Below are positions 1,781 to 45,693 of a stretch of DNA of 64,000 bases, one piece after another. The notes under the pieces were generated by a model, which ran no database searches, was not told the origin of the DNA, and saw only the letters and a program-made list of their open reading frames with translations. The position numbers were made by a program, and so were the translations under genes. Origin of the DNA: Planctomycetota bacterium (GTDB lineage: Bacteria > Planctomycetota > Planctomycetia > Planctomycetales > Planctomycetaceae); assembly GCA_003388505.1 (NCBI GenBank), contig QQVO01000015.1, positions 124,001-188,000 of the forward strand, read 5' to 3'. How positions within the stretch are numbered: the stretch's first letter is position 1; each line of letters starts with the position of its first letter.

Positions 1781-1884
1781 TAGAGCAAATTGCTCTACCA
1801 TGTCTCCGCGTTGAGCGGTGTTCGGACTGTCGGAAACGAGAATCCGCGAGACAGATCGCCAACATTGATTTGCAAATCGCTCTA
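1781..1884 (+). repeat. 104-bp miniature inverted-repeat element, copy A
   Basis: One of three 104-bp copies (others at 37410-37513 and 43021-43124). It begins TAGAGCAAATTGCTCTA and ends TTTGCAAATCGCTCTA, so the ends are imperfect inverted repeats (TAGAGCRAWTTGC) and both termini carry TA. The centre, including the GAGCGGTGTT and GATCGCCAACA segments, is conserved between copies. Too short to encode a transposase, so a MITE-like non-autonomous element is inferred. The TA ends would suit an IS630/Tc1-type transposase, but this is inference. Confidence 0.85.
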
Positions 1885-2124: not shown

Positions 2125-3456
2125 TTACGCGGAACCGAGTTCCCAGCCCTCGCGATATTCCCTCCGCAACAGGGCGTCCGCCTCCGAATTGTTGGGAACC
2201 CGGAGACCGGCGGCGTCCCACTCCAGTTCGCGGCCGCGGACCAGGGCCGCCACGTTGCCGAGTTGCACGGCTTCGGTCAGCGGGCCGGCGTAGTGGAATC
2301 CGTCGCTCGTTCGTTCTCCCGCCAGCACGGCGTCCACCCAGACGTGCCAGTGGTTCAGGTTCGATTCCTCCGGCGGGGTGAAATCGGCGAACTTCTCGAC
2401 CGGATAGAGCTTCGGCATGTCGACGTGCGGCAGCACCAGGTTGCCCTCCTCGCCGATGAACAACGACCCGCCTCCGGGAAGTTCCTCGCCGTCCGGGAGT
2501 TGGGCCAGATCGCGGGGCGGCTTCAAACCTCCGTCCCGCCAGATGACGGTGATCTGATCGCCGGCCGTGTACTCGGTTCCGGGGAACACGTACGTCACGG
2601 TTTCCGGACCGGGCCAGACTTCGTCGTTCGTGCCGTCGTGCTCGGCCTTGACGGTCACCGGGGCTGTCAGTTCGAGCGCGGTGAAGACCGGGTCGAAGAT
2701 ATGGCAGCCAAAGTCGCCCAAAGCGCCCGATCCGAAGTCCTGCCAGTCCCGCCAGGTGAAGGGGTGATAGACCTTCGGAGCGTACGGCCTCATCGGCGCC
2801 CCGCCGATCCAGAGATCCCAGTCCAGGTTCGAGGGGACTTCGGCCGGGTCGGGTCGCTCGGTGGCTCCGCTGTGCTGCCGCCCGGAAACGCCGACCCAGG
2901 AGTGCACCTCCTTCACCTTTCCGATGACTCCCTCGCGAATCAGCCGTGTTCCCAAGCGGTAGGCGACATGCGAATGGATCTGATTGCCCATCTGCGTCGT
3001 CACGCCCGCCTCTTCCGCCGCCACCTGCAGCCGCCGCGCTTCCTCGACCGTGCGGGTGAGCGGCTTCTGGCAGTAAACGTGGTTTCCCTGCTCCAGAGCC
3101 GCCAGAGCGGCATGGGCGTGCATGTGATCGGGTGTCGATACCGAGACCGCGTCGACCGTATCACCGAGTTCCGCCAGCATTTCCCGGTAATCGGCGAAAT
3201 GCGGCACTCCCGGAAACGCTTCATCGGCGCGGTCGAAGCGGTCGCTGTCGACGTCGCAGAATCCGACGAACTTGACGGCCGGATGCGACCCAATGTTCGA
3301 CAGGTCGGCAAAGCCCATGCCATTGACGCCGACGCAGGCCACGTGCAATTGCTGCTTTTTCGTCTCGCTGCGAAGCAGCGCCGGGGCGAGCAGCGCTCCA
3401 CCTGCGACAGCGGTTCCGCGGGAAAGAAACTGGCGTCGGGACAGTCGGGTCGTCAT
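2125..3456 (-). CDS. Tat-exported Gfo/Idh/MocA family oxidoreductase
   Basis: NAD(P)-dependent sugar-type oxidoreductase or glycosidase-like enzyme of 443 residues. The ATG at 3456 is chosen over the longer open frame because AGGAG lies eight bases upstream and the protein then opens with a twin-arginine signal (SRRQFLSRG) and a hydrophobic stretch, implying export after folding. The Rossmann dinucleotide site (VACVGVNGMGFADL) follows directly. VDAVSVSTPDHMHAHAA and the NHVYCQKPL segment are family hallmarks, with Gln in place of the usual Glu of EKP. The substrate cannot be inferred. Such Tat-exported members are greatly expanded in planctomycetes. Confidence 0.93.
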   Translation of the reverse strand: MTTRLSRRQFLSRGTAVAGGALLAPALLRSETKKQQLHVACVGVNGMGFADLSNIGSHPAVKFVGFCDVDSDRFDRADEAFPGVPHFADYREMLAELGDTVDAVSVSTPDHMHAHAALAALEQGNHVYCQKPLTRTVEEARRLQVAAEEAGVTTQMGNQIHSHVAYRLGTRLIREGVIGKVKEVHSWVGVSGRQHSGATERPDPAEVPSNLDWDLWIGGAPMRPYAPKVYHPFTWRDWQDFGSGALGDFGCHIFDPVFTALELTAPVTVKAEHDGTNDEVWPGPETVTYVFPGTEYTAGDQITVIWRDGGLKPPRDLAQLPDGEELPGGGSLFIGEEGNLVLPHVDMPKLYPVEKFADFTPPEESNLNHWHVWVDAVLAGERTSDGFHYAGPLTEAVQLGNVAALVRGRELEWDAAGLRVPNNSEADALLRREYREGWELGSA

Positions 3457-3676
3457 GGGATCGCTCCTGTTTGCGGTGTGACACAGCAAGTGGCTCGGGT
3501 GAGAGTGAAGATACGCAAAACACCGCCGGGACACCATCCTTGCAGAGTCTGCTTCGAGTTTCGGAGTTTCGGCCCAGCACTTGCCTGTCGTTGAGCGCGC
3601 TGATCCGGCGGCGTATCATCAATGGCAGGCGCCCACGATCCATGTCCTGGTGCGCCATCAGGCGGAGGCCGGCCGT

Positions 3677-8588: not shown

Positions 8589-9166
8589 GAAGTCAGGTCT
8601 CCGTAAATGACGCCAGTCGCGATCCTAACGCATCGAGTCGCCCGCTCCCATTCTTCGCGAGGGGGGCAGGCGTTCAGACGTGCAGCCGTCCAAGTGCTGT
8701 CCGTTACACACAGGTCATTCCGAAACCCTCCTGCGGTGGGGATGGGGCACGCCCACGGGAGACGACGCTGAAGGCGTCGCACAGCAGAGCCGGGGGTCGC
8801 GACGACAGGAGCGCACCCCCGGTTTGCGGTCCACGCCTGGCGAGAACGCTGAAGGCGTTCGACAGGCGCTGTGGAACTCTTTCAGAGTTCATGCGACAGC
8901 GCCGTCCACGGGAACCCAGGGTGGCGCGGCTGCGCCGCTGACCCTGGGCTAAGTTGTCGTACGCCTTCAGCGTACTGACTGCACCCGCGGGGACCGCGTA
9001 GACGCCGCCAGTGGGGGATCGAGTTGTGTGCAACTGACAGGTGTCCAAGGTGCTCAACAATTTCGCCCGGCTTTCTGGACTGTACCGGGAGGCGGATCGA
9101 CCGTACGATTCCTGTGAAAACTGAAGGCCGCCGGGAGGCGGCAGTTCCCTTGAGGCAGAGGATATC
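8589..9166. other. 578-base spacer with hairpin-rich repeat block
   Basis: No supported gene. Bases 8703-9034 look like a relative of the roughly 273-bp element family: left end GTTACACACA, right end TTGTGTGCAAC, flanked by imperfect direct repeats GTCCAAGTGCT (8688-8698) and GTCCAAGGTGCT (9043-9054). Its interior differs from the other copies and holds a run of small hairpins. Confidence 0.6.
8703..9034 (+). repeat. Divergent relative of the GTTACACACA-ended element
   Basis: 332 bases bounded by GTTACACACA and the near inverted copy TTGTGTGCAAC. Inside are three 17-base hairpins (8763-8779, 8844-8860, 8959-8975) with stem pairs that vary but stay complementary, a GAACTC/GAGTTC hairpin near 8874-8890, and a CAGGGT/ACCCTG stem near 8919-8946. 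No coding potential. Confidence 0.55.
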
Positions 9167-24025: not shown

Positions 24026-25711
24026 CTACTTGTTGCCGATCGCGATCAATTCGTTCTTGTTCGTGATGTACAAGACGTTGTTGGCGACGATCGGCGTGCT
24101 GAAGACCGAGTTGCCCATGTCGTTCTCGGCCAGCATGTTCATCTCAGTCGAATGCTCAAACACGAGGATCGCGCCGACTTCGTTGCCGATGTAGACCTTG
24201 CCGTCGACGATCAGCGGCGAGCCCCACGCCTGGGCGAACATGTCGTAGCTCCAGTAGCCTTCGCCGGTACGGGCGTTCAGGCAATGAAATACACCGCTGA
24301 AGTCGGCGATGTAGAGGATGTCGTCCTTGATCGCCACGGTTCCGCAGGAGCGGTGCATCTCTTCCTCATAGTCGAGCTTGCCGTTCCCGTTAATGTCAGA
24401 GCCGGTAAAGTGCCAGACGACGGCCGAGTTGGGGTTGGGAATCGCTTTTTCCCCGGCGCTCTCGTCGACCGCCTGCAGGCGCCGCGGCGGAAGTTCGTTG
24501 CCCTCGGCGTCGACCGCCAGTTCCGCACTCACGTCGCCTGATTTGGTCGGGTCGATGCACCACAGGTGGCCGTTGCCTTCGCCGTGTTCCGGATCTTCGC
24601 CGACGGCGACATAGACGAGACCGTCGTAGATCACCGGTGTGGCGATGATGTGGTTCCGCGTCGACCGGCCGCGAACCGAGTAGAGCGACGTCTTGGGGTT
24701 GGCGTCGAACTTCCAGAGCAGTTTGGAATTGCCTGCGCCGTCGCCCTGGGGATCGAAACTGTAGATCCAACCGTCTCCGCCGCCGAAGATGACCTGGGCC
24801 TGACCGCCGACCTCCGTATAGGCGGGCGACGACCACTGGCCGTGCAGGATGTTCGTTCCGGGGGACTTGTCGGTCCACAGCACCTCGGCGGTGTCGCGGT
24901 TGATGGCGAAGAAGCTGGGTGCGTCTGGGGCGGGAATATTGACGTGCGATTCGTCAACGCCGTTGGAGGTGCAGACGAACAGCAGGTCGCCGACCCCGGT
25001 GATCGAGCAACTGCACATGTTGTGCTGCGAGACGCCCATCTCGCCCATCATGTCGTAGATCCAGACGACGTCGGCTTCGTTCTTCGCGGTCGAATCCTCC
25101 GCATCGAACGGGCCGTCGTTCTCGTCGTCATGGAAGCCTTCCAGGTCGAGACAGCAGACCTCGCCCCGGTTGTTGACGTACCACAGGCGGTCCCCGTCGA
25201 CGAACGGCGCAGCGCAGACGCCCATGTCGGGCCAGTCGTTGACGAGTCCCTGCGGGAGCTTCGTATTCGAATGCTGCCACAGGAATTCGCCTGTCTCTTC
25301 GTCGAAGCAGATGAGGCATCCCAGGTCAGGGCCGCCTTCCGAGCGGGCCGGAAAACGGGGCACCCAGCCGTGGCCGTTGTTCGTGCCGACGATGACTTTC
25401 CCGTTGGCGACGACCGCGTTGCCGTAGGTCTGCGTGCCGAGCGGCTGCGACCAGAGGATGTTCTCCCCGCTGTCGACGTCCCACTCGGCGGGAATGTTCT
25501 CGCCGGGCGGCGTGTTGTTGCGGTGGCTCCAGCCGAAGAACTGAGGCCAGTCGCCCGCACCGACGTCCAGCGCGGAGATTTCTTCCACCGCCGCCGCTGT
25601 CGGATCGTGCGCGGCCGTTTCGTCGTCCGCGATAATCAACATCCGGGCGGCCGGCGCGGCCCCGATCAGAACGGCGAGCGCTGTCAGTGAAGTCCTGATT
25701 CTCATCAACAT
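24026..25711 (-). CDS. Secreted PQQ-type beta-propeller protein with an EF-hand loop
   Basis: 561 residues from the ATG at 25711 (GAGAGGACG just upstream). A hydrophobic N-terminus suggests export. Repeated outer-blade motifs mark an eight-bladed PQQ-like propeller: GKVIVGTNN, FDEETGEFLWQ, GRLWYVNNRGEVCCLD-like, INRDTAEVLWTD, GWIYSFDP, LNARTGEGYWSYD. A 12-residue loop DINGNGKLDYEE (24362-24397) matches the EF-hand calcium pattern. No quinoprotein catalytic residues can be confirmed; many such proteins are non-enzymatic. The paralogous 905-frame propeller is 52 bases upstream, suggesting an operon. Confidence 0.87.
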   Translation of the reverse strand: MLMRIRTSLTALAVLIGAAPAARMLIIADDETAAHDPTAAAVEEISALDVGAGDWPQFFGWSHRNNTPPGENIPAEWDVDSGENILWSQPLGTQTYGNAVVANGKVIVGTNNGHGWVPRFPARSEGGPDLGCLICFDEETGEFLWQHSNTKLPQGLVNDWPDMGVCAAPFVDGDRLWYVNNRGEVCCLDLEGFHDDENDGPFDAEDSTAKNEADVVWIYDMMGEMGVSQHNMCSCSITGVGDLLFVCTSNGVDESHVNIPAPDAPSFFAINRDTAEVLWTDKSPGTNILHGQWSSPAYTEVGGQAQVIFGGGDGWIYSFDPQGDGAGNSKLLWKFDANPKTSLYSVRGRSTRNHIIATPVIYDGLVYVAVGEDPEHGEGNGHLWCIDPTKSGDVSAELAVDAEGNELPPRRLQAVDESAGEKAIPNPNSAVVWHFTGSDINGNGKLDYEEEMHRSCGTVAIKDDILYIADFSGVFHCLNARTGEGYWSYDMFAQAWGSPLIVDGKVYIGNEVGAILVFEHSTEMNMLAENDMGNSVFSTPIVANNVLYITNKNELIAIGNK

Positions 25712-30492: not shown

Positions 30493-31435
30493 GGATCTGC
30501 AAGTGCTCGATGGGTCGACCACAACGACACAAAGAGCACCAGGAAAAGCCAGAGAAGAGGAAGACCACGCGCTCAAGTTCACGAAATCACTGAGACAATC
30601 GGCTTCGTGTCCATTGTGTCTTCGTGGTTCACTACCAACGGCGGTCTGTCCCGGACCGAGAGGACTCCCCGAGTCGCCGTTCGACAAGAGCGTTGGGGCT
30701 TCCCTCACTGCGTTCGGTCCAGCCCTTAGCATGACCCACGATTTCAGATCAGTGAACAACCACGGAATGCACGGAAGCCACGGAAAATGGCCACGAAAAA
30801 CACAAAGAGACCCAGCGCGGGCCTCGCCCGCAACCCAACCGGAGGCGAATAGAAACGGAGCGGCGAAGCCGCGCCACCATGTAGCCGTGAGCGTAAGCTC
30901 ATGGCTTCTGAGCCCCCCGTGAATCTCCGAGCCGCAAATGCGGCGGCAGCAACCTTCCGACCGGAACAGTCCCGCCGAACGGCGACTCATTGAGTCTTCA
31001 TCGTCCGAGACACGCCGCCCAGCGGTAGTGAACCACGACGACACAAAGGACACCAAGCCAACGGTCCGGGTCAGTCCTCGAACCTGTCGGCCATTGGAAT
31101 TCCCGTCGCTGACTCTTCTTGGTGCTCTTTGTGCCTTTGTGGTCGACCAATCGACCACTCGAATACTAAACGGGCTGGTGGAATCTGCGCACCACGCGAA
31201 GAATCTTACCGTTAGTAGCACGAAAAAGAGACGTTCTCACGGCTTTACCTTTTGTGGCTTTTTGTGTTTCTCGTGGCAATCCCGTCGCATCGTTCCAAGA
31301 CCACGGGTGACAGGTTCACTTCATTGCGGCGATAAGCCGCCGGGATTTCCGAATGATCCGGTGGTTCGCTGCTCTCAAGTGCCGGGCAAATTGTGGGTAA
31401 CGACAAGCGGTCCAGCCCCGGCCACCCACCGCAGT
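30493..31435. other. Spacer dominated by the 680-bp element
   Basis: 943 bases. Element copy 1 occupies 30726-31407. Before it, 30514-30545 carries GGTCGACCACAACGACACAA and the following GAGCACCA, an inverted relative of bases 31119-31150 inside the element. Long open frames on both strands exist here but are explained by composition. Confidence 0.6.
30726..31407 (+). mobile_element. 680-bp non-coding element, copy 1
   Basis: Nearly identical to 38713-39386 over its full length. Ends are inverted: left CTTAGCATGACCCAC (counting the shared C at 30725), right GTGGGTAACGACAAG. It is flanked by an 11-base direct repeat CGGTCCAGCCC (30715-30725 and 31408-31418), which fits a target-site duplication. 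It contains a GACACAAAGGACACCAAG tract of the type often seen in environmental bacterial spacers. No transposase is encoded, so it would need one in trans. Confidence 0.8.
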
Positions 31436-32284: not shown

Positions 32285-32650
32285 GCCGTGTTCGTTCGTC
32301 CCCTTTCGTAGGACAGGTTTCCAACCTGTCAGTTACACACACGTCGACTGGGGCCCGGCGCCGAGGAACCGGGCCCAAAGGATTCTCGAACAGGACACAG
32401 ATTTTCGCGGGTTTGGCGGATCAGCACGGATTTTACGGGGAATTCTGAAAAAGGCGGCAGCGACGAGACCGCATCGATCCAGTTGTGAATACTCTGCACT
32501 CCACAGAAAGCAATCAGCGAAAATCGGTCCCATCCGTGGTCATCCGCGTTCCATTCGAATCTCTCGGCGAGTCACTCAATCGGGGATCGAAAGATGTGTG
32601 TAAACGACAGGTTTCCAACCTGTCCCGACAGGATGAAATCCTGCCGTACG
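32285..32650. other. Spacer with GTTACACACA-ended element
   Basis: 366 bases between two minus-strand genes, almost filled by the 274-bp element (32332-32605) and its flanking GACAGGTTTCCAACCTGTC copies. No gene supported. Confidence 0.6.
32332..32605 (+). mobile_element. 274-bp element with GTTACACACA ends, copy 1
   Basis: Left end GTTACACACACGTC and right end GATGTGTGTAAAC are imperfect inverted repeats. The interior (GGACACAGATTTTC, GGCGGATCAGCACGGATTTT, ATCCGTGGTCATCCGCGTTC) is conserved at 42904-43280 and 45166-45437. It is flanked by direct copies of GACAGGTTTCCAACCTGTC (32312-32330 and 32606-32624), itself a hairpin. Non-coding. Confidence 0.8.
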
Positions 32651-35587: not shown

Positions 35588-36574
35588 ATGGCCATCTACT
35601 TTCGCAGACGAAGCCCCCTGCATCTGCCGATCACGTTGAGCGTCTCGCTGATGGCGCTGAACGTCACGCTGATGGTCTGCTGGATCATTCTCCTCGCCGA
35701 ACAGGCGGAGTGGACGGCCCTCACCATTGGTGTCGTGACCTTTACAATGATCCTGATCGGCCTCTCCTTCTGGCTGGCGCTCACCATCAAGGAAATCCGG
35801 CTCAATCATCGGCAGGCGAATTTCGTCGACAGCGTGACGCACGAATTGAAATCTCCCATCGCGGCGCTGCAACTGTCGCTGGAAACGCTCAGGATGCGCG
35901 ACCTCGACGAGGACAAGCGGGCCGAGTTCCACGCCATGATGGCCGAGGAACTGACCCGGCTTGACCAGCTCATCGAGCAACTCCTCGAAGTCGGCCGCCT
36001 GGACGCCATCGGGGCCCACGAACGTCCGGAAACCGTCCCCCTGCAGACGCTGCTCTACCGGTGCGCCGAGTCGGCCTGCATTCAGCACCACGTCGACATT
36101 GAACGCGTGCTGACGTTCGACGTGCCGCGGATCAGCATCCACGCCCGTCGCATGATGCTGCAGCTTGTCTTTTCGAACCTGATCGACAACGCCGTCAAGT
36201 ACGCCGACGATCCGCCCGCTGTTCGCATCGAGGCCTTTCCCACGGGCGCCGATCGCGTCACCGTCCGCATCACGGACAACGGCTCCGGCGTCTCCTACGA
36301 CGAGCGCAAGAAGGTCTTCAGGATTTTCTATCGCGGCGGCAGCGAACTTGAACGTCGCCGCAAGGGAACAGGCCTCGGCCTGTACATCGTCTATACCATC
36401 GTCCGCCGTCTGAAAGGCAAAGTGACAGTGCTTGATCGCGTCGACGGCGAACAGGGCTGCACTTTCCAGGTGGAGCTCCCCGGGCGTGTCAACCAGCCGG
36501 AGTCGACCGACGATTCCTCCGGAGGGAGTGACGCCGCTTCTGAACTCTCGACGCGGGAGGAGGACGCCGCGTGA
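35588..36574 (+). CDS. Sensor histidine kinase
   Basis: 328 residues from the ATG at 35588. Two membrane spans (about residues 13-35 and 45-65) have little periplasmic loop between them. HisKA H-box DSVTHELKSPIAALQ (phospho-acceptor His about 84) is followed by HATPase motifs: N box NLIDNAVKYA, G1 ITDNGSGVSY and G2 GTGLGLYIVY. The C-terminus is an acidic Ser-rich tail. Its stop overlaps the response regulator start by four bases. The stimulus is unknown; the lack of a sensor domain suggests membrane or partner sensing. Confidence 0.93.
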   Translation: MAIYFRRRSPLHLPITLSVSLMALNVTLMVCWIILLAEQAEWTALTIGVVTFTMILIGLSFWLALTIKEIRLNHRQANFVDSVTHELKSPIAALQLSLETLRMRDLDEDKRAEFHAMMAEELTRLDQLIEQLLEVGRLDAIGAHERPETVPLQTLLYRCAESACIQHHVDIERVLTFDVPRISIHARRMMLQLVFSNLIDNAVKYADDPPAVRIEAFPTGADRVTVRITDNGSGVSYDERKKVFRIFYRGGSELERRRKGTGLGLYIVYTIVRRLKGKVTVLDRVDGEQGCTFQVELPGRVNQPESTDDSSGGSDAASELSTREEDAA

Positions 36575-37320
36575 GTCGCCGCATTCTGATCGTCGAAGAC
36601 GAAGACGTCATCGCCCGCGGACTGCAGTTCAATTTCGAGCAGGAAGGGTACGAAGTGATTCTCTGCGGCGACGGTCCGTCTGCGCTGGAGTCGTTCGCCC
36701 TCCACGCCGGACGAATCGACTGCGTCGTCCTCGATCTGATGTTGCCGGGGATGAGCGGCTACGAAATCTGCCGCGCGATTCGCGAAAAAGACGCCACGGT
36801 CCCGATTCTCGTCCTTAGCGCCCGCGCGCTCGCCGAGGACAAAGCCTACGCGTTCGACTGCGGCACCGACCAGTACATGACGAAACCGTTCGCCCTGCCG
36901 GAGTTGCTCAGCCGCGTTCGCAATCTGCTCGACCGCCACAACCGCCTCGCCGCCCCGCACACGGACAGCCGCGAAAACCATCTGGACGAGTTCCGTTTCG
37001 GCGACGTGCACATCGATTTCCGGGCGTTCCAGCTCACCAAAGGCGAGAAAGTGCACGAACTGACGACGATGGAAGTCCAGCTCTTGAAGTACTTCGTCCG
37101 CCACGAGGGAGACGTCCTTCCCCGCAATCAGATCCTCCGGGACGTCTGGGATCAGACCGCCGACGTCACGTCGCGCTCCATTGACAACTTCGTGATGCGG
37201 TTGAGGAGGTACATCGAAGACGATCCCGCCAACCCGGACCATCTGCTCTCCGTGCGGGGCACCGGATACCGGTTCGTTTCCCGCCGATCAGCCGCAACTT
37301 CTGATTCTGAAATGCTTTAA
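36571..37320 (+). CDS. OmpR-family response regulator
   Basis: 249 residues from the GTG at 36571. Receiver domain: acidic pocket VEDED at 8-12, phospho-acceptor Asp55 in VVLDLMLPGMSG, Thr/Ser in LVLSARA and Lys in MTKPFALPEL. The C-terminal winged helix (about 145-240) has HELTTMEVQLLKYFVRHEGDV and DNFVMRLRRYIEDDP, ending GTGYRFV. It should be phosphorylated by the kinase encoded just upstream and bind DNA; the regulon is unknown. Confidence 0.94.
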   Translation: MSRRILIVEDEDVIARGLQFNFEQEGYEVILCGDGPSALESFALHAGRIDCVVLDLMLPGMSGYEICRAIREKDATVPILVLSARALAEDKAYAFDCGTDQYMTKPFALPELLSRVRNLLDRHNRLAAPHTDSRENHLDEFRFGDVHIDFRAFQLTKGEKVHELTTMEVQLLKYFVRHEGDVLPRNQILRDVWDQTADVTSRSIDNFVMRLRRYIEDDPANPDHLLSVRGTGYRFVSRRSAATSDSEML

Positions 37321-37409: not shown

Positions 37410-37513
37410 TATAGCGCGTTGCAAATGGGTGTTGGCGATCTGTCTCGCGGACTCTCGTCCTCGACAGTCCAAACACCGCTCGACGCGGACACATGGTAGA
37501 GCAAGTTGCTCTA
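37410..37513 (-). repeat. 104-bp miniature inverted-repeat element, copy B
   Basis: Reverse-oriented copy: begins TATAGCGCGTTGCAAATGGG and ends GAGCAAGTTGCTCTA. Same length as copies A and C. It ends 63 bases before the desaturase start codon, so it may sit in or over that gene's promoter. Confidence 0.85.
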
Positions 37514-37576
37514 ACGCTCGTGGAACAACGCCGATTGCGGATGAAATCAGAGATTGGCCCTCGGGAGCAGCATTCG

Positions 37577-38560
37577 ATGTCAACGCAAGTCCTTGAATCT
37601 CCGGTCCGCCGCCCTTCACGACGGCGTCCGCAGCCGTCCGGCAAGACAGTTTCACAGCGTTCCGGCGAAGCGGCCGATCTCCAGGCGGAGATCATTCACG
37701 CCTACAGCCCCGGCGCATTGACCTGGAAGAATGTCGACTGGGCCGTGGTGGTCTGGATGACGGCGATGCACGTGGGTGCGGTCGCCGCATTGTTCTTCGT
37801 GACCTGGCAGGCCGTCGCCGTCGCCGTCGCACTCCACTGGCTGACGTGCAGCCTGGGGATCTGCCTCGGGTATCACCGGTTCCTCTCGCACCGTTCCCTG
37901 AAACTCGCCGCTCCGGCGCGGTTCTTCATCTCGCTCTGCGGCGTTCTGTCCGGGGAGGGCGGCCCGCTGACCTGGTCGGCGAACCACCGCATCCACCACG
38001 CCCGCTCGGACCGCGAAGGCGACCCGCACTCGCCCAACGACGGCAGTTGGTGGTCTCACATCACCTGGCTGTTCCTGCTCAGGGACAAGGAGATGACGGC
38101 CAGGACGCACCAGCGCTACACGCCCGACCTGCTCAAGGATCCGATCCTGGTCTTCTTTGAAAAGACATACGGTCTGTGGCTGGTTGCATCCGGAGTCGCG
38201 CTCTTCGCAATCGGCGGTTGGCCGTGGCTGCTGTGGGGCCTGTGCGCCCGGATGGTCGTCGCCTACCACTCCACGTGGTTCGTCAACTCGGCCACGCATA
38301 TCTGGGGTTACCGCAATTACGAAACGACCGACCGCTCCCGCAACCTCTGGTGGGTCGCGCTGCTTTCCTACGGCGAAGGCTGGCACAACAATCACCATGC
38401 CCATCCGCGGCTGGCCCGCGCCGGGCACAAGTGGTGGGAGATCGACATGACCTTCTACGCCATCCGCGCCCTGCAGTTCGTCGGCCTGGCCTACGAAGTC
38501 GACGATCGCATCCCGACCGGCGAGAAAGCCGACCCCGAGCACACCGCCCGCCCCTGCTGA
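37577..38560 (+). CDS. Acyl-CoA/fatty acid desaturase
   Basis: 327 residues from the ATG at 37577 (GGGAGCAG upstream). Integral-membrane di-iron desaturase introducing a cis double bond. All three histidine boxes are present: HRFLSH, HRIHH and HNNHH, with four hydrophobic spans arranged as in delta-9 desaturases. A Pro/Arg-rich N-terminal extension of about 40 residues precedes the first span. Substrate carrier and position are not determined. Confidence 0.92.
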   Translation: MSTQVLESPVRRPSRRRPQPSGKTVSQRSGEAADLQAEIIHAYSPGALTWKNVDWAVVVWMTAMHVGAVAALFFVTWQAVAVAVALHWLTCSLGICLGYHRFLSHRSLKLAAPARFFISLCGVLSGEGGPLTWSANHRIHHARSDREGDPHSPNDGSWWSHITWLFLLRDKEMTARTHQRYTPDLLKDPILVFFEKTYGLWLVASGVALFAIGGWPWLLWGLCARMVVAYHSTWFVNSATHIWGYRNYETTDRSRNLWWVALLSYGEGWHNNHHAHPRLARAGHKWWEIDMTFYAIRALQFVGLAYEVDDRIPTGEKADPEHTARPC

Positions 38561-38712: not shown

Positions 38713-39386
38713 CTTAGCGTTACCCACGATTTCAGATCAGTGAACAACCACGGAATGCACGGAAGCCACGGAAAATGGCCACGAAAAACACAAAGAGACC
38801 CAGCGCGGGCCTCGCCCGCAACCCAACCGGAGGCGAATAGAAACGGAGCGGCGAAGCCGCGCCACCATGTAGCCGTGAGCGTAAGCTCATGGCTTCTGAG
38901 CCCCCCGTGAATCTCCGAGCCGCGAATGCGGCGGCAGCAACCTTCCGACCGGAACAGTCCCGCCGAACGGCGACTCATTGAGTCTTCATCGTCCGAGACA
39001 CGCCGCCCAGCGGTAGTGAACCACGACGACACAAAGGACACCAAGCCAACGGTCCGGGTCAGTCCTCGAACCTGTCGGCCATCGGAATTCCCGTCGCTGA
39101 CTCTTCTTTGTGCCTTTGTGGTTGTCCAATTGAGCACTCGAATGCTAAACGGGCTCGCAGAATGTCCGCACCACGCGAAGATTCTCACCGTTCGTAGCAC
39201 GAAAAAGAGACGATCTCACGGCTTTACTTCTTGTGGCATTTTGTGTTTCTCGTGGCAATCCTGTCGCATGGCTTCAAGACCACGGGTGACAGGTTCACTT
39301 CATTGCGGCGATAAGCCGCCGGGATTTCCGAATGATCCGGTGGTTCGCTGCTCTCAAGTGCCAGGCAAATTGTGGGTAACGACAAG
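38713..39386 (+). mobile_element. 680-bp non-coding element, copy 2
   Basis: Same sequence as 30726-31407 with a few substitutions and short indels. Left end CTTAGCGTTACCCAC and right end GTGGGTAACGACAAG are inverted repeats matching at 13 of 15 positions. Flanked by the 11-base direct repeat GGGCTGGACTG (38702-38712 and 39386-39396). The target resembles that of copy 1 on the opposite strand (CGGTCCAGCCC), so insertion is site-preferring. Confidence 0.8.
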
Positions 39387-42903: not shown

Positions 42904-43280
42904 GTTACAGACAAGTCGGCGGGGGCCCGGCGCCGAGGAACCGGCCCCAAGGGATTCTCGAACAGGACACAGATTTTCACCGATTTGGCGGATCAGCACG
43001 GATTTTGCGGGGAATGCCTGTAGAGCGAATTGCTCTACCATGTGTCTGCGTCGAGCGGTGTTTGGACTGTCGAGGACCAGAACCCGCGAGTACGATCGCC
43101 AACACTGATTCGCAAAGCGCTATAAGGGGCGGCAGCGACGAGACCGCATCGATTCAGGCGCGAATACTCTGCACCCCACAGAAAGTAATCACCGAAAATC
43201 GGTCCAATCCGTGGTCATCCGCGTTCCATTCGAATCTCTCGAAGAGTCACTCAATCGGGGATCGAGAGATGTGCGTAAAC
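42904..43280 (+). mobile_element. 273-bp GTTACACACA-ended element, copy 2, interrupted
   Basis: 377 bases in total; minus the inserted 104-bp element it is 273 bases, matching copies 1 (274) and 3 (272). Left end GTTACAGACAAG, right end GATGTGCGTAAAC. Outside both ends lie similar segments GACAGGCCCTCAACG and GACAGGCCCGCAACG, an imperfect direct repeat. Confidence 0.8.
43021..43124 (+). repeat. 104-bp miniature inverted-repeat element, copy C, nested
   Basis: Begins TAGAGCGAATTGCTCTA and ends CGCAAAGCGCTATA. Inserted in the middle of a 273-bp element: the host sequence runs GGGGAATGCCTG before it and GGGGCGGCAGCGACGAG after it, and the uninterrupted copy at 32332-32605 lacks it. This shows the 104-bp family has moved. 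Confidence 0.88.
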
Positions 43281-45116: not shown

Positions 45117-45693
45117 CCGTCGCACGCCGACCGAATTCGCCCCAGACAGCGCGAAGGAGTTGTCAGTGACACACAACTCGGCTGGGGCCCGGCCCCGAGA
45201 AACCGAACCCGGGGGATTCTCGAATAGGACACAGATTCTCACGGATTTGGCGGATCAGCACGGATTTTGGAGGAATTCCTCGCCAGGCGGCAGGGCCGAG
45301 ACCGCATCGATTCAGCGCGCATGGCGTCGACACGCAAGAAAGCAATCAGCGAAAATCGGGCCAATCCGTGGTCATCCGCGTTCCATTCGAATCTCTCGGA
45401 GAGTCACTCGAACGGGGATCCTGAGATGTGTGTAAACGATGATGCTAAGGAGTCATGCTGTCAATCGTTATCCTTGCAGAGCCGATTGCATGAATTCGCC
45501 CGATCGACGGAACTTTCTCGCAAAGGCATTCGTCTGTTCCAAAGGGCCCAATTCGCATCACGCCCCAAACGGCAACCGCTCGGTCAGTTTTTGAAATTCC
45601 GGGCGCCGCGCGCTATCGGACCGGGAGTCTTGCAGGCTTGTCTCACAATCAAAGCCCGGACAGGGCACGACCGAATCTGCACAGGAGACCACC
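45117..45693. other. Divergent spacer with element copy 3
   Basis: 577 bases between divergent genes. Element copy 3 occupies 45166-45437. The rest (45438-45693) shows nothing I can support apart from AGGAG before the VIT/VWA start at 45694. Confidence 0.55.
45166..45437 (+). mobile_element. 273-bp GTTACACACA-ended element, copy 3
   Basis: 272 bases, left end GTGACACACAACTC, right end GATGTG and TGTAAAC. Interior shared with copies 1 and 2 (GGCGGATCAGCACGGATTTT, ATCCGTGGTCATCCGCGTTC). Copy 3 is the most diverged. Confidence 0.78.

Follow-up and report, generated by a model that had tools for sequence, protein, structure and literature searches.

Small TA-targeting repeats have been described as MITEs in several bacterial groups, and four of them are closest to the family analyzed here. 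RUP of pneumococcus, which is linked to IS630-Spn1, is described as 107 bp long and present in 108 copies, with a TA target and similarity to IS630 ends (PMC2229807), and it inserts into other repeats (PMC10969869). The Correia element (NEMIS) of Neisseria has a short form of about 107 bp with TA ends and target duplication (PMC2229807), for which more than 120 copies are reported (PMC10969869). ERIC (IRU) is described as having TA ends, target duplication, and a 7-bp terminal inverted repeat (TIR) (PMC2229807); it is found in two bacterial families, with cases at gene 3′ ends (PMC10969869). CIR, from Caulobacter and Brucella, is described as having TA ends, no proper TIR, and two linker-joined inverted-repeat arms that are kept between genera (PMC2229807). 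In the open-licence literature on planctomycete repeats and MITEs, we found, among the titles and starts of abstracts listed, no earlier account of the 104-bp family reported below.

Copies of the 104-bp element

The window analyzed here is a stretch of 64,000 nucleotides from a planctomycete draft genome (G000, positions C1:124001-188000; the draft comprises 6.78 Mb in 78 contigs). A preliminary description placed three copies of a 104-bp element in it, and their positions proved exact; each is 104 bp long and has TA at both ends. Copy A (1781..1884, plus strand) lies between predicted genes 913-1758 and 2125-3537, both on the minus strand. Copy B (37410..37513, minus strand) lies between predicted genes 36571-37320 and 37493-38560, both on the plus strand, the latter of which overlaps its edge. 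Copy C (43021..43124, plus strand) is located within a 273-bp repeat and is 92.3% identical to the family consensus; by BLAST within the window, copies A and B are 83.7% (E 2e-27) and 87.5% (E 7e-33) identical to it. The element had also been credited with TA-ended inverted termini. The TA ends are there, whereas the inverted repeats are weak (TAGAGC... versus TATAGC...) and neither long nor perfect.

That copy C interrupts the 273-bp repeat (42904..43279, plus strand, by BLAST) is borne out by alignment: the segments 42904-43015 and 43128-43279 are 91-92% identical to the insert-free repeat at 32332..32604 (plus strand), and the repeat at 45166..45436 (plus strand, 82% identical to the 32332 copy) is also without an insert. 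Further uninterrupted copies are found in other stretches of the genome. A clear TA at the copy C site is kept in none of the aligned empty repeats, and because these have diverged at that spot, copy C itself carries no evidence of TA duplication. The nesting does establish relative age, as proposed, for copy C against its host repeat, and reaches no further.

The 273-bp repeat also forms a family of many copies, whose ends are about GTTACACACA.. and ..TGTGTGTAAAC; its copies include 32332-32604, 42904-43279, 45166-45436, L069, L061, L046, L047, and L102, among others, and a similar sequence lies inside one copy (L147) of a second MITE family described below. Elsewhere in the window, an Rfam search at the gathering score returned Acido-Lenti-1 only, away from the element. 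Both Acido-Lenti-1 matches (30859-30904 and 38847-38892, minus strand; 37.2 bits, gathering 37) fall within a pair of 300-bp repeats that are 99% identical (30725-31024, 38713-39012). A predicted tRNA-Pro (ggg) at 24885-24964 (plus strand) lies opposite a 561-aa open frame (24026-25711, minus strand).

BLAST of the element against the whole genome returned at least 40 listed places and 194 candidates at first look. A 21-base core pattern, allowing up to three mismatches, matched 135 times, with no match for the reversed control; together with the BLAST identity among the window copies, this rules out a chance repeat. At least 141 distinct copies were extracted from stretches of the genome, of which 127 are ungapped 104-mers; per-site counts below refer to these 127, the other 14 being excluded. 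Copies differ from the consensus by 0-33 substitutions (median 5), and recent and old insertions are therefore mixed. Neither outcome that the preliminary description had set against its own reading occurred: more than 100 dispersed copies are present in the genome where there might have been no further ones, and in place of copies at orthologous sites in relatives, BLAST against 58 other genomes found no real copy, the sole match being of 21 bp (in G013). Four copies (L004, L013, L019, and L063) occupy the same point of another repeat, whose end is about GTCGCGGC; the element has landed there repeatedly.

Profile searches revealed diverged relatives. A profile of 46 own copies (E ≤0.01) matched 20 of 170 family genomes, own included, about half of them through single weak partial matches. 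A cross-genus profile (E ≤0.001) matched 21 of 397 class genomes, 18 of which, own included, belong to the host family; each of the three outside it has a single partial weak match. Filters in these searches were strict, and the numbers given are lower bounds. Diverged copies occur in at least 11 genera of the host family, own included (nine at E ≤0.001 with the cross-genus profile, plus those of G017 and G005 with the own-copy profile), three of the 11 resting on one or two matches. The left end is present in the Planctomicrobium MAGs OFTM320 and CSMAG_88 and in the Planctomycetaceae MAG HKST-UBA70. Fifty-three chosen cross-genus sequences, delimited by extension of the model match, are 102-105 bp long, and 39 of them have exactly 104 bp. 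The own-genome core pattern had no match in a genomic contig collection from which own and very near records are perhaps excluded, and viral contigs yielded 0 matches. The element family is old in the family of its host, with separate subfamilies in different genera, and a non-autonomous element has persisted at near-constant length across 11 genera of one family.

Target site and similarity to IS630-type ends

TA is present at both ends in 75 of the 127 ungapped copies. The base preceding the element is T or C in 113/127 and the base following it A or G in 112/127, which defines a preferred target, YTAR. Most other groups show a similar pattern: among their copies that are TA-ended on both sides, Y and R adjoin the TA in 14/14 and 14/14 (genus group g57), 15/16 and 13/16 (Planctomicrobium), 13/13 and 12/13 (remaining groups), and 2 and 3 of only 4 copies (G017). 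The right terminal A (position 104) is the most variable of the four terminal bases, differing in 27/127 copies, mostly to C; the left T differs in 19 and the left A in 10.

Comparison of filled with empty sites, a check proposed in the preliminary description, succeeded for four other copies, the paralogous empty sites having a single TA and the filled sites TA on both sides. The pairs are L128 versus L102 and window 8890..8975 (plus strand; the single-TA empty site for the copy at G000:C8:1126), L067 versus L069 and L071, L103 versus L071, and L063 versus L039. For two more copies (L118 and L110), similar sites could be aligned, but the TA there is lost or ambiguous. Formally, the same pattern would arise without TA duplication if an element with a terminal TA of its own inserted 3′ of YTA; that YTAR is symmetric favours duplication. 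Transposition, and specifically transposition into TA, is upheld by the single-TA empty sites, the YTAR target, and the dispersal of more than 100 copies.

At 104 bp the element has no room for a transposase gene, and it is very probably a non-autonomous DNA transposon (MITE) of the Tc1/mariner-IS630 type. The right 35 bp (43090..43124, plus strand) resemble the 3′ end of an IS630-type element on contig C9, a match made with the family consensus rather than copy C. With the TAGAGC letters excluded, the right end matched the C9 end with p 0.002 for the own consensus and 0.001 for a G017 copy (1000 shuffles), values that, like all of the 56 end comparisons, are uncorrected. On the same uncorrected scale, the own right end gave p 0.004 and 0.025 against the two C73 ends, and the Planctomicrobium right end p 0.05 against a Planctomicrobium IS630 end. 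The own left end showed no similarity to the IS630 ends (p 0.67 for C9; 0.75 and 0.76 for C73); the best left end of the 104-bp element was that of G017 against the C73 5′ end (p 0.008; 56 comparisons, uncorrected). An IS630/Tc1-type source, as had been suggested, is supported by the empty sites, the target, and the dispersal together with the right-end match to an IS630-type element of this genome; the left end has no match, and no intact partner was found.

The own genome has four DDE_3 (PF13358) matches on three contigs, and none of these, in a draft of 78 contigs, combines both matching ends with an evidently intact frame. The C73 element is 1084 bp long with ends TAGAGCGCTCTGCA (L036:3672-4755); its ORF carries DDE_3 and HTH_Tnp_IS630, and by-eye comparison with C9 suggests a frameshift near the C-terminus. 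At the C9 locus, which lies close to the end of its contig, two frames with DDE_3 overlap. In eight related genomes, DDE_3 occurs at eight loci in five, none a complete partner with both ends; G004 (one contig, 99% complete) has no DDE_3 at E ≤1e-5, despite at least 21 element matches at E ≤0.01, some of them partial. A second MITE family, seen as 11 pairs of 191-241 bp, has ends TAGAGCGCTYTGCA on both sides that are like IS630 ends; we infer that an IS630-type transposase moves both families. Copies of the second family are found at G000:C1:123394-123626, just upstream of the window, and at L130-L140, L142, and L148. A candidate further MITE of ~120 bp, with ends TAGAGCA / CGCTCTA, was observed in genome G035 (L216:1313-1434). 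As judged from sequence, an IS630-type DDE transposase would act in trans on both ends of the 104-bp element, binding the termini and an inner inverted motif, and would excise the element and insert it at TA, so that the TA is duplicated.

Two other modes of spread were weighed against transposition of this type. The element might be of the HUH class (IS200/IS605, or REP/REPIN-like), in which case it would move as single-stranded DNA, with the terminal palindrome serving as the hairpin that is recognized and with YTA on the 5′ side as target. The palindrome does lie at one terminus and the ends are unequal, and a single TA in the empty site would also be expected if the right TA is the element's own; we nevertheless regard an HUH element as very unlikely, as the target is symmetric (Y before 113/127, R after 112/127), TA.AGC is mostly common to both ends, and the right end is similar to that of an IS630 element. 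The asymmetric target without duplication that marks IS200/IS605 or REP-type elements was not found, YTAR being symmetric. Homologous recombination or gene conversion between repeats would explain why some copies lie within other repeats (43021 in the window, and the flank common to L004, L013, L019, and L063). As the principal means of spread it is scarcely credible, since flanks differ among most copies compared, the boundaries of most copies fall at TA or a sequence one base away from it, and clean empty sites exist for four copies.

The inner motif and the terminal palindrome

Variation along the element is uneven. In the own genome, the blocks at positions 23-34 and 63-74 underwent 26 and 23 parsimony changes, versus 60 and 61 expected from base make-up, whereas region 81-102 underwent 178 versus 125 expected. 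Across genera, the inner blocks form an inverted motif, about TGNC.CGYGR and its complement; its left half (positions 23-31) lies at 43043..43051 and its right half (positions 64-73), partly mutated in copy C, at 43084..43093, both on the plus strand. TA.AGC is all that the two ends have in common across lineages as a terminal inverted repeat, and in genus group g57 the left end is mostly TACAGC and the right TAGAGC. That the termini are more variable than the inner blocks would be unusual if the ends alone mattered, and it counts against the MITE reading.

The left terminal 17 bp (positions 1-17; 43021..43037, plus strand) form a palindrome that is kept with changed letters in other genera. 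In the cross-genus sequences, its mean score is 5.65, versus 2.36 when shuffled, and most of the 53 carry a variant such as GAGCAA/TTGCTC, CAGCGTA/TACGCTG, or GACCGTA/TACGGTC; a few copies have lost it (e.g., L187, L188, and L279). Retention of the palindrome with changed letters is fully explained by neither transposase binding nor an RNA structure.

An RNA structure, rather than protein binding, might lie behind this conservation, an alternative that is compatible with a MITE. The minus-strand transcript would form a helix of positions 23-31 with 64-73 (one bulge) and a second hairpin from the terminal palindrome, and the retention of that 17-nt palindrome with changed sequence is in keeping with it. 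In the 53 cross-genus sequences, 92.0% of stem cells are paired on the minus strand, versus 33-57% when the stem is slid; the plus-strand share is 79.7%. Pair 25-71, which ranked first when a 72-row alignment was scanned, occurs as G-C (17), C-G (16), and T-A (13); of the six changes that parsimony assigns to it, three switch one Watson-Crick pair for another. On the minus strand, G-U is found at pair 29-66 in 29/53 and at pair 31-64 in 28/53, and on the plus strand at neither. However, RNAalifold predicted no fold for either of two cross-genus alignments (A3 on the plus strand, A5 on the minus strand), and the mean stem pairing probability exceeds 0.5 in 11/53 sequences on the minus strand and 12/53 on the plus strand. 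Nearly all of the covariation signal derives from three variable pairs, the counts of further pair types and double-change pairs are not above those of shuffles, and an inverted protein-binding site would covary in the same way. Rfam searches of five loci, at E up to 5, gave no match over the element. The folding z of the own consensus (-1.34 as DNA, -1.83 as RNA) is not decisive, and the own-genome copies, for which RNAalifold returned 20 pairs, one with a double change, are too young to decide.

We therefore consider a structured RNA behind the conservation improbable, and equally doubtful the fuller proposal of a ~104-nt RNA family, old in the host family, whose minus-strand helix and terminal hairpin are kept by compensatory changes while it hitch-hikes on an IS630-type transposase. 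If the inner motif were RNA structure, the element would be a mobile RNA family. We prefer to view the inner blocks as putative transposase-binding sites over an RNA or single-strand helix, because RNAalifold yields no structure, the stem is likely in few sequences, and the halves of a site for one protein would also change together.

Gene neighborhood and relation to described MITEs

Many copies begin where a reading frame ends. For 51 of 134 copies, the frame in which the first TAG of the element is read has no stop in the 100 codons of left flank before the junction; the corresponding counts for the other two frames are 16 and 19. Pfam domains at E ≤0.001 were detected in 8/10 TAG-frame flanks (6 above the Pfam cut-off) versus 0/10 other-frame flanks, ten flanks having been scanned from each set (of 51 and 35, respectively) and picked from the longer ones; several TAG-frame matches are complete to near the C-terminus. 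About 34 copies, a quarter of those in the own genome, appear to replace the stop codon of a gene. On the right side the own genome has no such excess (frames 26, 24, and 19), and none of the three window copies lies on the stop of a predicted gene. In g57 and G099, where the left end is TAC in 14/18, the excess at 60 codons is on the right (6, 0, and 0; 6 frames) versus 2, 2, and 3 on the left. At 60 codons G017 has its excess on the left (11, 2, and 2; 14 copies), the remaining group a weaker left excess (12, 4, and 7; 25 copies), and Planctomicrobium none (2, 2, and 3 on each side; 19 copies), though both of its ends are mostly TAG.

In the window, 6 of 24 YTAR sites outside gene bodies are stop codons, which is about the share seen for copies; availability and selection may therefore suffice, and targeting of stop codons as such is unnecessary. 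Copies are observed between genes and on TAA or TAG stops, where a TAG-reading end restores the stop, and they would persist there through selection. Such placement, switching with whichever end reads TAG, may be how a TA-targeting element lives in a GC-rich, gene-dense genome in which YTAR is scarce. The left gene is co-directional with the element in 75/107 cases. Stop-codon placement accounts only partly for this bias, which remains with both genes at least 10 bp (35/49) or at least 30 bp (25/38) away. In-frame insertion into proteins, of the RPE-like kind, was also examined: a search of 134 copies gave 31 open frames that run through a copy and 60 codons beyond it in both directions.

The 104-bp family joins a known kind, the TA-targeting bacterial MITEs, of which RUP, Correia, ERIC, and CIR are closest. 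RUP is like it in size, copy number, TA target, IS630-end similarity, and insertion in repeats. Compared by description, RUP has a 9-bp TIR like IS ends, whereas in the 104-bp element this likeness is confined to the right end; relatives in 11 genera further set the 104-bp element apart from RUP as described. Correia shares size, TA ends, target duplication, and more than 100 copies, and differs, again by description, in a 24-bp TIR where the ends of the 104-bp element share about 6 bp. ERIC resembles it in TA ends, target duplication, and 3′-end placement and belongs to a different host group, a comparison of descriptions and not of letters. CIR is similar in its TA ends, the lack of a proper TIR, and inverted-repeat arms kept across genera; the GANTC sites carried by those arms are a feature of CIR. 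Within this kind, the 104-bp family has an unusually conserved inner motif together with a wide reach in its host family.
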